Of a stretch of 20,664 nucleotides of DNA, positions 1 to 11,631 are shown piece by piece (positions within the stretch are counted from its first letter, which is position 1; each line of letters begins with the position of its first letter). A program made the translations under genes and the position numbers. The notes beneath the pieces are model-generated. The model was not told the origin of the DNA and made no database searches. It was given only the letters and a program-made list of their open reading frames with translations. The stretch is from a virus, in IMG/VR virus record IMGVR_UViG_3300017713_000116, positions 1 to 20,664 of that record; one strand, 5' to 3'.

Positions 1-14
1 ATAAAAGTTTGCAT
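1..14 (-). CDS. Possible start of a further gene, cut by window edge
   Basis: An ATG on the minus strand at position 14 lies two bases after the stop codon of the CDGSH-like peptide gene and continues off the window (first residues M-Q-T-F). The tight spacing matches the rest of the operon. Only four full codons are visible, so this is a positional inference. Confidence 0.3.
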
Positions 15-16
15 AT

Positions 17-94
17 TTATTTATTTAAATGGCTACCATCGCAGTAACCTTCTGGGTTATTTGTGCATCCGCACTTACATTTTACTTCTATCAT
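17..94 (-). CDS. Miniature CDGSH-like metal/iron-sulfur binding peptide (25 aa)
   Basis: This 25-codon ORF encodes a peptide dominated by the motif CKCGCTNNPEGYCDGSH (residues 6-22). It resembles the CDGSH signature C-x-C-x2-(S/T)-x3-P-x-C-D-G-(S/A/T)-H, in which three Cys and one His bind a 2Fe-2S cluster. Here Cys6, Cys8, Cys18 and His22 would be the ligands, Cys10 is extra, and the Cys8-Cys18 spacing is one residue longer than the usual form. Almost nothing lies outside the motif: five residues before and three after. The start ATG overlaps the stop of the preceding holin-like gene as ATGA, which supports coupled translation. Known CDGSH proteins are redox or iron-sulfur proteins. In a phage late operon the role is unknown. 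Zinc instead of iron-sulfur is possible. Confidence 0.72.
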   Translation of the reverse strand: MIEVKCKCGCTNNPEGYCDGSHLNK

Positions 95-501
95 AACTTT
101 CCTTTTGGGTGGTTATTTTTATTATCAAAGTCCATTGCTGCTTTTAATATAATTTTATCCATCATATTATCTTGGTTTTGTAGCATTTCTCTTTGTAAGT
201 TTATTACCATATCTTCTAACCTATCTTTAGCATCTACAAGCATTTGTATTTGATGGTCTTTCTTTTCTAATGTAGATTTTAAAGCATTTACATCATCAGG
301 CTTTGTACCACTAATAGCACTTATTAAAACAGGTATTGAAGCAGCAATAGAACCAATCAACATTAATACAATCTCTTTGTTAGATTCTAATACTGGGTAT
401 TGAACAAACGTAATTATAATTCCTACTATAAAGAAAAATATAAGTAAACTTCCTGCATAACTACGCAGTTCTTTCGCCACACCGTTTTTAGGTAATTGCA
501 T
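91..501 (-). CDS. Two-TM membrane protein with coiled-coil tail, holin candidate (136 aa)
   Basis: The protein has two predicted membrane segments, about residues 16-36 (rich in I, F and V) and 42-64. A charged helix follows at about residues 68-115 with heptad character (LKSTLEKKDHQIQMLVDAKD), and the C-terminus is short and Lys/Asn-rich. The small size, two N-terminal membrane spans, charged cytoplasmic end and position after the tail fibre gene fit a holin or spanin-like accessory, but no family signature is seen. I chose the ATG at 501, which overlaps the upstream stop as TGATG, over the GTG one codon earlier at 504. A membrane-anchored coiled-coil protein of another function remains possible. 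Confidence 0.6.
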   Translation of the reverse strand: MQLPKNGVAKELRSYAGSLLIFFFIVGIIITFVQYPVLESNKEIVLMLIGSIAASIPVLISAISGTKPDDVNALKSTLEKKDHQIQMLVDAKDRLEDMVINLQREMLQNQDNMMDKIILKAAMDFDNKNNHPKGKL

Positions 502-641
502 CACTTTAGCTTTTTATAAATTGAAATAGATGTATACACTACTGCAAGTATTAAACTGATTGACTGAAGCATAGGGTTCGCCTCACTTATAGAAATGCCT
601 AAAGCAAAAAAGTTAACGAAACCTATCTTCAACTCTTCCAT
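501..641 (-). CDS. Small hydrophobic membrane protein (46 aa), holin-like
   Basis: This ORF fits exactly between the fibre gene and the holin-like gene. Its ATG overlaps the fibre stop (TAATG) and its TGA overlaps the next ATG (TGATG). The peptide begins MEELKIGFVNFFALGIS and has one clear membrane segment at about residues 24-42 (MLQSISLILAVVYTSISIY), possibly a second weaker hydrophobic stretch at residues 6-18, and a basic end (KKLK). Two adjacent small membrane proteins after the fibre gene suggest a holin/antiholin or holin/accessory pair. This is inferred from topology and position only. The perfect overlaps at both ends are the main argument that it is a real gene. Confidence 0.62.
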   Translation of the reverse strand: MEELKIGFVNFFALGISISEANPMLQSISLILAVVYTSISIYKKLK

Positions 642-3373
642 TATGCTATTGCTAAATAAAGATAGTTGGTGCTGTTAGCATTCATTCCATCCCAAGTATT
701 AAGATTCCCTACAGTCCCTACGGTAAATCCAGTTGCCGAACGATATATTGCTTCAGCTGAATTAGAATATTCCGCATCTGAAGTATTTGCTCTTAATCTT
801 GCACTTGCTGGATTAGTGGAAGCTCTTGCACTATCAATTACAACCCAAGGTCCTGTTCCATTATCTATTTTTTTAATCATTAAGAATCTTGGGCTGAATC
901 CTGTTGTAATACTTGGCGGTGTGGTAAGATCCCCTGCATAACTCCCTATCTTCTGATAACCATCTACTGAATGGAAGCAGTAGGCGATAAAATCACCTGA
1001 AATACCTGTATCTTTAAATGTAAATACAGAAGGAGTAGGATCTGTGCTGTCAAATCTTGTTGTACTTCCTTCAGGATCAGAAAGATCTAATACTAATTTT
1101 TTAGCATTACCAATAGGTTCAGCATATACTTGCCAGTTTGAATTAGCGTCTATTGGCTTTATTAATATTAATTCAGGTGTATCTATTCCGTGTCCAATAG
1201 TAGCAACTCCACCTGCTGCTGAAAATTTTACAATACTAAACCCTGCTGCTTGATTCGCACTAACTAAACTTGTTGTGCTTCCGTCTTGGTTTATAGTAGA
1301 TAAGCTTCTATCGTGGTCGGCAGCTTTCCAGTTCCACGATATATAATTCGGCGGTGTTCCTGAAAAAGTACCACCTGCTGAACCATTTACTGCATTATTA
1401 CCACCTGCAACATCTGAAACACTAAATCCATTTGAATCAAAAGAAGTCAATCCGTGTGGGTCTGCATTATATTCTACTGCTATGTCATTTGATTGTACTA
1501 ATTTATGGTCACCCCTAATACTATCAAACAAAGCGTGTCCCGCATTAGCCTCTCTGGCTTTTATCCAAACAAAATCTGGTTTCATCCCATTTGATAAAAC
1601 AATATTTTGAGTACCGCCATTTCCTGTATATGTTTTAGCTTCAAAACTATCCGCTTTAGTTGCAGGTGTAGTATCTGGGTCTTGAGCAAATGCCATAAAG
1701 ATATAAGTATTACTTCCACCATTCCAACCAGCATCAGTTGTATTAAGAGTAAATCCATTACTATTAAAAACCATTCTACCTACATAGGAATCTTCTGCAT
1801 TATTAAGATTGGCAAACAAAGCAATGTCAACTCCCCTTTTGTTGTCATATATAAGCCAATTGTCAGATGCTGTACTTACTTTTAGCATAACAAAAGCAGG
1901 TTCAAATCCTGTTACTATAGAATTACCTGTTGCTCCTGTGCCTTCATAAGAGCCTATACGAGAGTAGCCTTCTACTGAATGGAAGCAGTAGGCTATATAA
2001 TCTTTATTATTAGTTCCTGTTTCACCTGTATTACCAATAGTAAAAACGGAATCTGTTGGTCTTGCAGTTGGACTTCCAAAAATACTTCCTGAACCTGATT
2101 GACCAGAAGAACCATTTAATTGCAAAAAATTACCATTAGCACCATCTTTATGAAGTACCGACCAATCATTTATAGTTTCTAACCCTTTGACAATAAGTAA
2201 TTCTACAATAGAACCCAATCCGTGTCCAATAGTTGCAGTTGCACCTGTACCTGTATATTTAACAATACTAAACCCTGCATCTACATTCTTTTTTATAGTT
2301 GATGCAATTGTAGCACCGTTAGAACCTGCATTATTAGTTTCTGCAGTAGGAGCATACCAGTTCCAAGACACCATTGTTCCAGAATTTGTATCTGCTCTTG
2401 AGCCAACAGTAAATCCCCCTGTTCCACTTGAATCAAAAGAAGTTAAACCTTGTGTACGAGTATATTCTACGTCTGTATCATTAGTAAATAGAGCTTTAGT
2501 AACACCTCGCACAGAGTCATATAATTGATGAGAATATCCTACTCCGCCAGGAGTACGATTCTTTATCCAAGTAAAATCTGGCTGAAACCCTACTGTAATA
2601 GCTTTAGTTCCACTACTACCATTCCATATTACAGTATTAAAATGCTCACTTGGAGTTACAGCACTTGCACATTGTACCTCTGCATATAAAGTGCCTACTT
2701 CTGAAGCTGATATTGCTTTGTTAAATATTCTGATTTGGTCTATTTTACCGTCAAAAAACTGTTGAAATGAACCTCCTGTAAATCTATAGCTTCCTATACC
2801 TGCTTTTGTAGTTGGATGAAAATTAATTAAATTGTTTTGTGTTAATGTTACAGGTGTACCGTCATTAATATATATATTAGCTTGGGTTGTGCTTATAGTG
2901 AGCACTACATTTGTCCAAACATTATTAGCGACAGTTGCGGTTGTATTTAAATTACTTTGTGTACCGCTATTATAAAATTGAGCAGTTAAAGTTTGATTTG
3001 CATTTTTTCTCCATATAAAACCTCTTGAAGCACTTCCATCATAATCAAAACTATTAAATATACTTTGGTCTGCTGCACTTGAACTTGAATTAATCCAAGC
3101 ACTTATAGTTATTGTTGTATCATTAAAAGAACCTGCTGAAAATTCTACATTACTACTACTACCATTAAAACCACCTGCTAATCCGTACTTACCTTCTACA
3201 TTAAAATCAACTGAAGTAGGTGTTCCGTTATAAGAGCCACTTTCATCTGAAGCATCAGCCATCTTATAATAAGCAATACAAGATGAATCGCCTAATATTT
3301 GTAAAGTGTTAGTAGTACAAGCACCACCGCCACCTGTTGGCGCACCTGCTATTAATCTTTTATTTATAGCCAT
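641..3373 (-). CDS. Tail fibre / receptor-binding protein with LamG-like domain and two repeat modules (910 aa)
   Basis: This is the largest gene of the distal part and most likely the host-recognition fibre. Residues about 30-230 look like a concanavalin A/LamG-like jelly roll (YYKMADASDESGSYNGT near the start, DGKIDQIRIFNKAISASEV at the end), a common carbohydrate-binding fold. Residues about 240-562 and 575-910 form two copies of a module of the type called DUF7483 in marine phage fibres, recognised from memory. Each copy carries a GF.PDF.WIK-type strand, a GLTSFDS stretch, a SWNW motif, ATIGHG, and IAYCFHSV(E/D)GY followed by IGSY. The start ATG is three bases after the previous stop. Glycan binding is inferred from the fold; the exact receptor cannot be read from sequence. 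Confidence 0.8.
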   Translation of the reverse strand: MAINKRLIAGAPTGGGGACTTNTLQILGDSSCIAYYKMADASDESGSYNGTPTSVDFNVEGKYGLAGGFNGSSSNVEFSAGSFNDTTITISAWINSSSSAADQSIFNSFDYDGSASRGFIWRKNANQTLTAQFYNSGTQSNLNTTATVANNVWTNVVLTISTTQANIYINDGTPVTLTQNNLINFHPTTKAGIGSYRFTGGSFQQFFDGKIDQIRIFNKAISASEVGTLYAEVQCASAVTPSEHFNTVIWNGSSGTKAITVGFQPDFTWIKNRTPGGVGYSHQLYDSVRGVTKALFTNDTDVEYTRTQGLTSFDSSGTGGFTVGSRADTNSGTMVSWNWYAPTAETNNAGSNGATIASTIKKNVDAGFSIVKYTGTGATATIGHGLGSIVELLIVKGLETINDWSVLHKDGANGNFLQLNGSSGQSGSGSIFGSPTARPTDSVFTIGNTGETGTNNKDYIAYCFHSVEGYSRIGSYEGTGATGNSIVTGFEPAFVMLKVSTASDNWLIYDNKRGVDIALFANLNNAEDSYVGRMVFNSNGFTLNTTDAGWNGGSNTYIFMAFAQDPDTTPATKADSFEAKTYTGNGGTQNIVLSNGMKPDFVWIKAREANAGHALFDSIRGDHKLVQSNDIAVEYNADPHGLTSFDSNGFSVSDVAGGNNAVNGSAGGTFSGTPPNYISWNWKAADHDRSLSTINQDGSTTSLVSANQAAGFSIVKFSAAGGVATIGHGIDTPELILIKPIDANSNWQVYAEPIGNAKKLVLDLSDPEGSTTRFDSTDPTPSVFTFKDTGISGDFIAYCFHSVDGYQKIGSYAGDLTTPPSITTGFSPRFLMIKKIDNGTGPWVVIDSARASTNPASARLRANTSDAEYSNSAEAIYRSATGFTVGTVGNLNTWDGMNANSTNYLYLAIA
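963..985. repeat. 23-bp direct repeat, copy 1 (inside fibre gene)
   Basis: This 23-base stretch is identical to positions 1971-1993. It encodes the AYCFHSV core of the second fibre module. It contains an inverted repeat, CTACTG (964-969) and CAGTAG (978-983), around an 8-base loop. It most likely reflects duplication of the protein module. Confidence 0.6.
1971..1993. repeat. 23-bp direct repeat, copy 2 (inside fibre gene)
   Basis: Identical to positions 963-985, in the first fibre module and at the equivalent protein position (AYCFHSV). The flanking bases diverge immediately on both sides. Confidence 0.6.
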
Positions 3374-8575: not shown

Positions 8576-9505
8576 TTAAGAATAAAGTACGATATCACTT
8601 CCGATGCCATACTGAACACCTGCTGTAAATCTCATTACTACTCTTACATTTTGACTTCCGTCGATGTCAGCCATATCAATTACCTTAACTTCATTGTGGT
8701 CTGCTAGAAGACCAGTTCCAAAGTATAAGTTTGACTTTTCTGCTGCTACCATTGTATTGTCAGCTAATCCATTTGCTACTGCAATCTTAATACCGTCAAA
8801 CGATAAAGTACCACCTGTATACCATTGAGTACCGTCAGCGTTTATACCTGCTGCACCTACATTAGTTGCAAATCCACCTAACGCTCTTACATATGCTCTA
8901 GCTACGTTTTGTGAAACATAAATAAACATATCTTCTGACGTATAAAGGGTGCTGCCTATTGCATCTACAACTGCACCTAACTGTGCAATTACATTTCCAG
9001 AGTTTACACCACCACCGACTGCTGCTACATCTGTAACATCAGCATCTGCTGTCATTAATTCTGTAAAACCACCAAATTGACCTGCTGTTGCTGCTGCACC
9101 TGCCCATATAGACTGCTCAGTACGTTGTGCTACTTTACTAGCTACGTGACCAATTAAAAAGTCTGCAAATGAAGGAGGTAAGCTTTGAAAAGCACTAAAG
9201 CCCATTGAAGCTGCTTCCCAGTCTGACTGAAAGTCTTTTTTACATAATTGTAAGTTGACTTGCTGAAAATCAGGCTGAATTATACGTTCAGTTAACGTAA
9301 TTGCTGAAGTAGGGTCAAAGTCACAAGTTGCATCTTTTACAATGTCGTCTGTAGATACTTTTTTAATTACTTCTTTAAATTTAATATTTGGTTTAACAGT
9401 GATTAAACCGTTATCCAAAGTTGAACCACTTAAAAGTGCTGCTGAGATGTATTCCCCTGCAAATTCACCTGCATAAGTAGTCGTTATCGAATTAGTTGTT
9501 GCCAT
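8576..9505 (-). CDS. Major capsid protein (309 aa)
   Basis: This is the best candidate for the shell-forming coat protein. It has the right size, follows protease, scaffold and decoration genes, and is followed directly by a terminator. It begins MATTNSITTTYAGEFAGEYI. An element with FQSDWEAASMGFSAFQSLPP, then FADFLIGHVASKVAQRTEQS and IWAG, resembles, from memory, coat proteins of flavobacterial phages. The C-terminal half is Gly/Ala-rich with strands (MFIYVSQNVARAYVRALGGF, VVMRFTAGVQYGIGSDIVLY), consistent with an HK97-type fold. No long N-terminal delta region is seen, consistent with the separate scaffold gene upstream. The leader is A-rich (ACTAAAAAATGG) without Shine-Dalgarno. Identification is from context and pattern. 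Confidence 0.8.
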   Translation of the reverse strand: MATTNSITTTYAGEFAGEYISAALLSGSTLDNGLITVKPNIKFKEVIKKVSTDDIVKDATCDFDPTSAITLTERIIQPDFQQVNLQLCKKDFQSDWEAASMGFSAFQSLPPSFADFLIGHVASKVAQRTEQSIWAGAAATAGQFGGFTELMTADADVTDVAAVGGGVNSGNVIAQLGAVVDAIGSTLYTSEDMFIYVSQNVARAYVRALGGFATNVGAAGINADGTQWYTGGTLSFDGIKIAVANGLADNTMVAAEKSNLYFGTGLLADHNEVKVIDMADIDGSQNVRVVMRFTAGVQYGIGSDIVLYS

Positions 9506-10612: not shown

Positions 10613-10762
10613 TTAAGTTCCATCACCTGTAACATTTCCTATTCCTTGTGAGTAATAACTTTCACCACAACAATCTCTACTGTATGTATTGTCTTGACAT
10701 AAACAAGCCCTTTTAGTGCTGTGTGGGACTGGTACTCTACGGTCTACATAATATTTTGACAT
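10613..10762 (-). CDS. Small Cys-rich phage protein (49 aa), unknown function
   Basis: This ORF begins MSKYYVDRRVPVPHS two bases after the protease stop codon. It carries the motif KRACLCQDNTYSRDCCGE (Cys20, Cys22, Cys31, Cys32), then SYYSQGIGNV. The pattern RACLC-x(D)NTYS-x2-CC-x-G, ending in QGIGN, resembles, from memory, short proteins found beside capsid genes of flavobacterial phages and prophages. Four closely spaced Cys suggest a metal-binding knuckle or disulfides in the virion. It lies between the protease and scaffold genes, so a head assembly role is plausible. It is too short for standard gene callers but is supported by the motif, tight spacing and frame. Confidence 0.72.
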   Translation of the reverse strand: MSKYYVDRRVPVPHSTKRACLCQDNTYSRDCCGESYYSQGIGNVTGDGT

Positions 10763-10764
10763 AA

Positions 10765-11631
10765 CTATTTTATTTTAACACAATTAGGTACTTTTTTTCC
10801 GTTCAACATTTTAGTTCCTATCATTTCGTAACCGTTCCAACAAGGTTTTTTTAAGTCTATATCTTCTTTTATATGTTCTTCACAAGGCATATACCAAGTT
10901 TTACCTTTAATATCGTGAGTATGGAAACCAACACAACCTATATTAATAGCCATTTCTTCAGCTTTTTCTTGTGTTGAATATGCTAAACGGTCATCTATTA
11001 TAGCATATTTTTCGTCAATTACTTGTTCTTCAAGTTCTTGCGGCTCTAATAATGATAAAATTGTATTAAGTTTTTCTTCTGCTTGTAATTCTTCTGACAA
11101 AGTTTTGTCTTGTGGTCTTTCCATTTTGTCTGCAAAGTAACCTTCAATACTGAATCCTTTAACTTTACCAGTCTTAACGTAGTCATTCCAAACCTCGTCA
11201 TTGTCAACTTTAACTGCACCCATCCAAGTTCCTAAAGGTACATTCATATTATATAGTGTACTTTTGTCTTTTTCCTTGTCTTCTACTATCCAAGACTCTA
11301 CAAGTGTCAGTCCTGTTAAAATTTCACTATGTTCTAATGTACTATTGCTTTGGTTTCCTGCTTTTAAATACATTTGAGAAGCTTTACGTACTGTATTTCT
11401 AGAAAAATATATATAGTATTCTTCATCACCTTGCCTACGAAAAATAGGTTTATTAGGCGTTAGTAATGCACCTATAAGTATTTTTTTTTCCTTGTCTGCT
11501 TCTGCAAATTTTATTTCTTGTGACTTTAAAGCTACAAAGTCTTCTTCTATTGCAGGGTTTTCTACTATACTAATAGCTTCAATTCCGTTGTCTTCGTCTG
11601 TTTCGTCTATAACTAGTTCTATTATTTTCAT
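10765..11631 (-). CDS. Capsid maturation protease, XkdF-like, with Cys/His C-terminal domain (288 aa)
   Basis: The N-terminal 170 residues match the phage XkdF-like putative serine protease family: a start like KIIELVIDETDEDNGIEAIS with VENPAIEEDF, a substrate-strand region (FRRQGDEEYYIYFSRNTVRK), then LEHSE with His101 and GFSIEGYF with Ser161. These are the expected His and Ser of a herpesvirus-like prohead protease, which cleaves scaffold and coat precursors. Residues about 208-255 form a separate module (DDRLAYST, C233-x3-H-x-H, W-Y-M-P-C-x2-H253). The end carries PCWNGYEMIGTKMLNGKKVP followed by NCVKIK. The gene starts with TAATG at the tape measure stop and is followed by the Cys-rich ORF, scaffold and capsid genes. 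Confidence 0.8.
   Translation of the reverse strand: MKIIELVIDETDEDNGIEAISIVENPAIEEDFVALKSQEIKFAEADKEKKILIGALLTPNKPIFRRQGDEEYYIYFSRNTVRKASQMYLKAGNQSNSTLEHSEILTGLTLVESWIVEDKEKDKSTLYNMNVPLGTWMGAVKVDNDEVWNDYVKTGKVKGFSIEGYFADKMERPQDKTLSEELQAEEKLNTILSLLEPQELEEQVIDEKYAIIDDRLAYSTQEKAEEMAINIGCVGFHTHDIKGKTWYMPCEEHIKEDIDLKKPCWNGYEMIGTKMLNGKKVPNCVKIK

Follow-up and report, generated by a model that had tools for sequence, protein, structure and literature searches.

The microgene and its setting in the phage

The window analysed here, 20,664 nucleotides of the IMG/VR virus record IMGVR_UViG_3300017713_000116, carries at one edge a gene for a protein of only 25 residues (Table 1). The product is little more than a metal-ligand motif, as the earlier note on this DNA had described it, with Cys6 and Cys8 forming a C-x-C pair and Cys18 and His22 lying within C-D-G-S-H; these four residues are the candidate ligands from the sequence and the alignments. 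Two peculiarities that the same note had pointed out are also present, an extra cysteine at residue 10 (Cys10) and nine residues between the second and third ligands, one more than the published eight. The start codon of the microgene (94-92) overlaps the stop codon of the upstream gene (93-91), giving the ATGA junction that had been reported, and is preceded by a AAAAGGAAAG stretch, while the microgene stop codon is separated by a gap of 2 nt from the start of the next gene at position 14. At the base composition of the window, the pattern CxC-x9-CDG[ST]H is expected by chance about 1.3e-6 times on the two strands together. The window contains no Rfam or tRNA matches.

Table 1. Features of the window, with one related locus carrying a protease fusion
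Feature	Position	Strand	Basis or remarks
First codons of next gene, cut by window edge	1..14	minus	Compared with L024 and L053
25-aa CDGSH-like microprotein gene	17..94	minus	Translation MIEVKCKCGCTNNPEGYCDGSHLNK; 48/80 phage loci; purifying selection
Metal-ligand motif region	26..79	minus	Sequence, alignments A1 and A3, per-codon table
Upstream gene, 136-137 aa	91..504	minus	One predicted hydrophobic stretch, coiled-coil-like tail; 80 viral relatives
Shine-Dalgarno-like stretch AAAAGGAAAGTT	95..108	minus	Directly before ATG; sequence, inference
46-aa transmembrane-like ORF, upstream of 136-137 aa gene	501..641	minus	ORF list
910-aa tail-fibre-like protein	641-3373	minus	Laminin_G_3 domain and DUF7483 (two matched stretches)
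309-aa ORF, taken as major capsid protein	8576-9505
49-aa protein with CLC-x8-CC	10613-10762	minus	ACLCQDNTYSRDCCGESYYSQGIG
Protease	10765-11631		Peptidase_S78_2 and DUF3721 domains, without CDGSH-like tail
Protease fusion with CDGSH-like tail	L105:1854-3677	plus	Also L122, L127, L128, L131, L134

The upstream gene can be called holin- or spanin-like by its position only, and neither it nor the 46-aa ORF has a family match in Pfam or PHROG. In two related loci, L024 and L053, the block is densely packed and runs from a transmembrane (TM) gene through the microgene and a gene for a 59-aa TM protein to a Peptidase_M15_3 endolysin (Pfam E 2.7e-17 on L024) and a 93-aa holin-like gene. The microgene sits in the lysis block, after a tail-fibre-like gene recognized by PHROG and Pfam matches. 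The late, lysis-block location proposed earlier is borne out by the TM genes and the M15 endolysin that accompany the microgene in these relatives; the idea, also proposed, of a metal ornament at the tail tip finds no support, the microgene being placed behind the tail-fibre-like gene, among TM genes and an endolysin. The nearest isolates to the putative major capsid protein are the Nonlabens phages P12024S/L (33% identity), which makes a marine flavobacterium the probable host. The microgene motif is absent from Nonlabens phage P12024S.

Conservation in related phages

Related loci were fetched with the upstream gene as bait, and 80 viral loci were kept; because the bait was this neighbour, the presence of the microgene played no part in choosing the sample. 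The motif lies directly downstream of the bait gene in 48 of the loci, a decayed copy (CKCGYTNNAEGYCDSSH) occupies the same slot in two (L045 and L056), and the remaining 30 have none, as in L018, where the bait gene is followed by a short AT-rich spacer and then by the next TM gene. The microgene is therefore an accessory gene that occupies a fixed slot.

Across 22 distinct DNA variants the ratio pN/pS is 0.17, and the microgene is under purifying selection. The three ligand cysteines, the histidine, the aspartate and the glycines are invariant in these variants, with only silent codon changes and both Cys codons in use at the invariant Cys positions; the threonine three residues after ligand 2 changes to serine once. 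The Cys and His positions, whose conservation the earlier note had named as one of the points on which its proposal would stand or fall, are thus conserved in related phages. The nine-residue loop of the window is found in all 49 phage copies. Cys10 is kept in 20 of the 22 variants and so characterizes this phage clade, but members of the family elsewhere have N, K, Q or L at this position, and it is therefore unlikely to be needed as a ligand.

Relation to CDGSH proteins

The ligand order C-x-C ... C-D-G-[STA]-H is common to the microprotein and to the CISD or NEET proteins (Pfam PF09360; types 1-7, Lin et al. 2011, PMC3174974). The CISD consensus, PhiCxCxx[ST]xxxPPhiCDG[STA]H, places eight residues between ligands 2 and 3 (PMC3174974, PMC5859297), and the CISD structures described are all dimers or tandem pseudo-dimers with a beta-sandwich (PMC3174974). 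Two further CISD features are retained, the Ser or Thr three residues after Cys2 in all variants of the microgene and the hydrophobic or aromatic residue before Cys3 in the microprotein family. The loop has nine residues instead of eight and carries a glycine where CISD proteins have a proline two residues before Cys3, a proline standing two residues earlier in most variants. The hydrophobic residue that precedes Cys1 at the end of the N-strand in CISD proteins is a lysine in the window, and both the beta-sandwich and the lid proline are absent, the structure model having no strands outside the loop. At 25 residues the microprotein is also shorter than the type 3 PcCISD (53 aa). With its loop longer by one residue, another residue in place of the proline and no beta-sandwich, the microprotein is not a CISD member by definition.

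Pfam zf-CDGSH does not match the 25-mer, and its scores on relatives (13.7-16.6 bits) stay below the cut-off of 29.5. Many very small peptides in viral contigs have the canonical eight-residue loop (for example in L214, L237 and L275); they are likewise encoded by tiny stand-alone CDGSH motif genes but differ from the window microprotein in their loop, which contains the proline, and in their gene neighbourhoods. In hhalign comparisons the family profile of the microprotein (A1) aligns with that of the canonical-spacing phage peptides (A2) at a probability of 97 (E 1.2e-10), and A2 in turn matches solved CISD proteins (3tbn, E 3.6e-14; CISD3, 4.6e-10). Against full-length phage-borne CISD-like proteins A1 gives a probability of 85 (E 6.4e-6); against PDB sequences, A1 alone finds its best CISD match at E 0.2, which is not significant.

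An AlphaFold model of the microprotein has a confident core, with a pLDDT of about 84 over the motif. Its sole PDB match in Foldseek is the type-4 CDGSH Fe-S protein 3tbm (20 columns, 1.3 A), which at E 4.4 is only suggestive, and a second look with VIA-align returned nothing. The model also resembles two viral proteins weakly and not significantly. These are A0A6J5L5F3 (E 2.6), a 72-aa protein of an uncultured Caudovirales phage named 'Iron sulphur-containing domain, CDGSH-type', and the unnamed 45-aa A0A516L2U7 (E 0.17), both longer than the microprotein. As UniProt already holds viral CDGSH-type proteins such as A0A6J5L5F3, the occurrence of CDGSH in phages is not new as such.

The SEC-C zinc finger (PF02810, about 19-22 residues) is likewise a tiny self-contained C-x-C ... 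C motif with a CxCG start. In SEC-C (C-x-C-x8-C-[CH]), however, the fourth ligand directly follows Cys3 and there is no CDGSH, whereas in the microprotein the spacing is nine and the histidine comes four residues after Cys3. With this difference in spacing and an hhalign probability of 7 for A1 against SEC-C, a SEC-C identity was rejected.

Judged from these alignments, the microprotein probably acts like a CDGSH loop and was derived from one. The term CDGSH-like, used in the earlier note, is justified for a stand-alone, conserved peptide that keeps the ligand set and shows kinship to CDGSH motifs in profile-profile comparison, with the reservation that the loop is one residue longer and the scores fall below the Pfam cut-off.

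A wider family in phages and marine bacteria

Relatives were also sought with DNA patterns for the nine-residue loop in viral contigs and in one-per-species bacterial genomes, and the resulting counts are lower bounds. At least 160 distinct relatives of 21-35 aa were collected from phages and from chromosomes of marine Bacteroidota, with the consensus CxCGx[TS]x[ND]xxGxCDG[ST]H. Both searches fixed the Gly residues, and the pattern for bacterial genomes also fixed Thr and Tyr, so that the invariance of these residues in alignments A1 and A3 is partly built in; the 48 copies fetched through the neighbouring gene are free of this bias.

The genome matches listed come almost entirely from marine Bacteroidota (Flavobacteriaceae, Polaribacter, Cryomorphaceae), together with Opitutae, whose matches carry two motifs in tandem. 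In the genus of G001, a Polaribacter, the pattern was found in 9 of 40 genomes, as against 1 of 395 genomes drawn evenly across its phylum, and a reversed pattern gave no match. The family in hosts is therefore patchy rather than universal.

No model in Pfam, NCBIfam or PHROGs recognises the microprotein, and the family is largely missed by annotation owing to the small size of its genes, which have fewer than 35 codons. A search of open-access papers, which leave out most subscription journals, turned up no account of CDGSH microproteins in phages. No significant match to the peptide or its relatives came from tblastn against 50,697 annotated phages, a search that is insensitive at this length and so does not demonstrate absence. 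The earlier suggestion that a self-contained 25-aa version may be undescribed agrees with the missing models and papers, but this phage is not alone in carrying such a peptide, given the 160 or more relatives.

In six phage loci a head-maturation protease (Peptidase_S78_2 with DUF3721) ends in the CDGSH-like unit as a C-terminal tail, which the protease of the window lacks. In L336, L351, L352, L362, L373, L374, L394 and L424, those with a known taxon coming from Opitutae, tandem CDGSH-like units are joined by linkers of about 8-13 residues. A structure model of the Opitutae tandem version had low confidence (pLDDT 60) and was left out of the fold search.

Gene neighbourhoods in host chromosomes

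Among the matches listed there are 80 chromosomal loci, and their flanks look like ordinary chromosome rather than prophage. In 44 of these loci a YceI-family gene ends at most 100 nt upstream of the microgene on the same strand, and because these YceI genes fall into 26 clusters at 70% identity, the association does not reflect a single clone. An NADPH-dependent FMN reductase (FMN_red in Pfam) lies directly downstream in 13 of the loci and is followed by a pirin gene in 8, and HxlR regulators occur nearby in 10. The remaining flanking genes, recognised by eye, include those for tryptophan synthesis, pyrG, an rsgA-like gene and others. Redox or stress functions are associated with YceI, FMN reductase and pirin. 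Where the earlier note had left the choice between a redox effector and a zinc peptide, the host neighbourhoods lean towards redox, a reading that depends on YceI, FMN reductase and pirin as neighbours and is one of association, not proof. What the peptide does in the phage may differ from what it does in the host.

Function of the microprotein

The explanation that we prefer, and to which we give about an even chance, is that the gene encodes a stand-alone metal loop of the CDGSH (CISD/NEET) type with one residue added, which likely holds a [2Fe-2S] cluster and serves as a small redox accessory; the ORF itself is real and under selection, and in this explanation it encodes a translated microprotein. 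The three cysteines and the histidine would be the ligands of a metal centre, for which a labile [2Fe-2S] cluster is the likeliest candidate. As 25 residues cannot build the CISD beta-sandwich, a second copy of the peptide or a partner protein would be needed, and would probably complete or shield the cluster site. In the host, the peptide might act alongside YceI, FMN reductase and pirin in redox processes or under quinone/oxidative stress, and a phage-encoded copy might serve to maintain or exploit such a redox function, or an iron-sulfur one, late in infection, while the lysis proteins are being made; both of these steps are more tentative than the binding of a metal.

The strongest competitor, which we consider less probable but still a serious candidate, is a zinc-stabilised microprotein in which the Cys3His set holds one Zn(II) and forms a small, rigid clip resembling a zinc knuckle; such a clip would bind another protein, perhaps one involved in lysis or assembly, and have no redox role. 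The self-contained modules of about 20 residues with linkers of 8-13 residues in the Opitutae tandems resemble beads rather than a CISD pseudo-dimer, the same peptide fused C-terminally to Peptidase_S78_2 head proteases would suit a structural clip, and neither the beta-sandwich nor the lid proline of CISD proteins is present. The short linkers of the tandems and the fusions to proteases fit a zinc bead or clip equally well. What speaks for [2Fe-2S] is that CDG[ST]H is retained in full, as is the Ser/Thr at the third position after Cys2, both as in the 2Fe-2S CISD proteins, that the profile kinship is to CDGSH and not to the SEC-C zinc finger, and that the host neighbours are redox genes. On the grounds of the retained pattern and the host neighbours, [2Fe-2S] is modestly preferred over zinc.

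A role in lysis timing, in which an antiholin-like accessory acts on the flanking TM lysis proteins with its metal centre sensing redox state or metal, would be in keeping with the slot between two TM genes just before the M15 endolysin, with genes that overlap or nearly touch, and with the accessory presence expected of a modulator. The relatives, however, are also found in other phage positions, in head-protease fusions and in host chromosomes without lysis genes, and we therefore regard a lysis-specific role as unlikely, and as secondary if it exists. The absence of the gene from 30 of the 80 related phages and its decay in L045 and L056 might suggest a chance ORF or a decaying, functionless remnant; this is very improbable, being already contradicted by the motif expectation of about 1e-6, the strong purifying selection, the exact packing between neighbouring genes and the hundreds of relatives.

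Returning to the [2Fe-2S] explanation, a broader claim may be attached to it, namely that 21-35 aa CDGSH microproteins of marine Bacteroidota and their phages form a large overlooked class that binds [2Fe-2S] without the CISD fold; we find this plausible, although somewhat short of an even chance. If true, these would rank with the smallest genetically encoded Fe-S proteins in nature, redox function would be carried by phages, and marine flavobacterial phages would gain a redox or iron-sulfur accessory in their lysis block. A [2Fe-2S] cluster held by such peptides would show how little protein a CDGSH site needs, and would make the CISD loop a mobile microgene that is used singly, in tandem and as the tail of a head protease. 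A family that annotation misses could then be named, and the link to YceI offers an immediate, testable host function.

Other small cysteine motifs in phages

The canonical mini-CDGSH genes of L201-L280 lie in islands of 2OG-Fe(II) oxygenases, which make up 20% of the ORFs at distances of up to 3 kb as against 3% beyond 5 kb. As this neighbourhood concerns canonical-spacing peptides and phages with such islands, it is not evidence on the window. Some of the canonical genes adjoin AhpC/TSA and CMD-family genes. Beside its protease gene, the window encodes a further tiny, Cys-rich protein, the 49-aa product with CLC-x8-CC, which has no Pfam or PHROG match and is possibly metal-binding.
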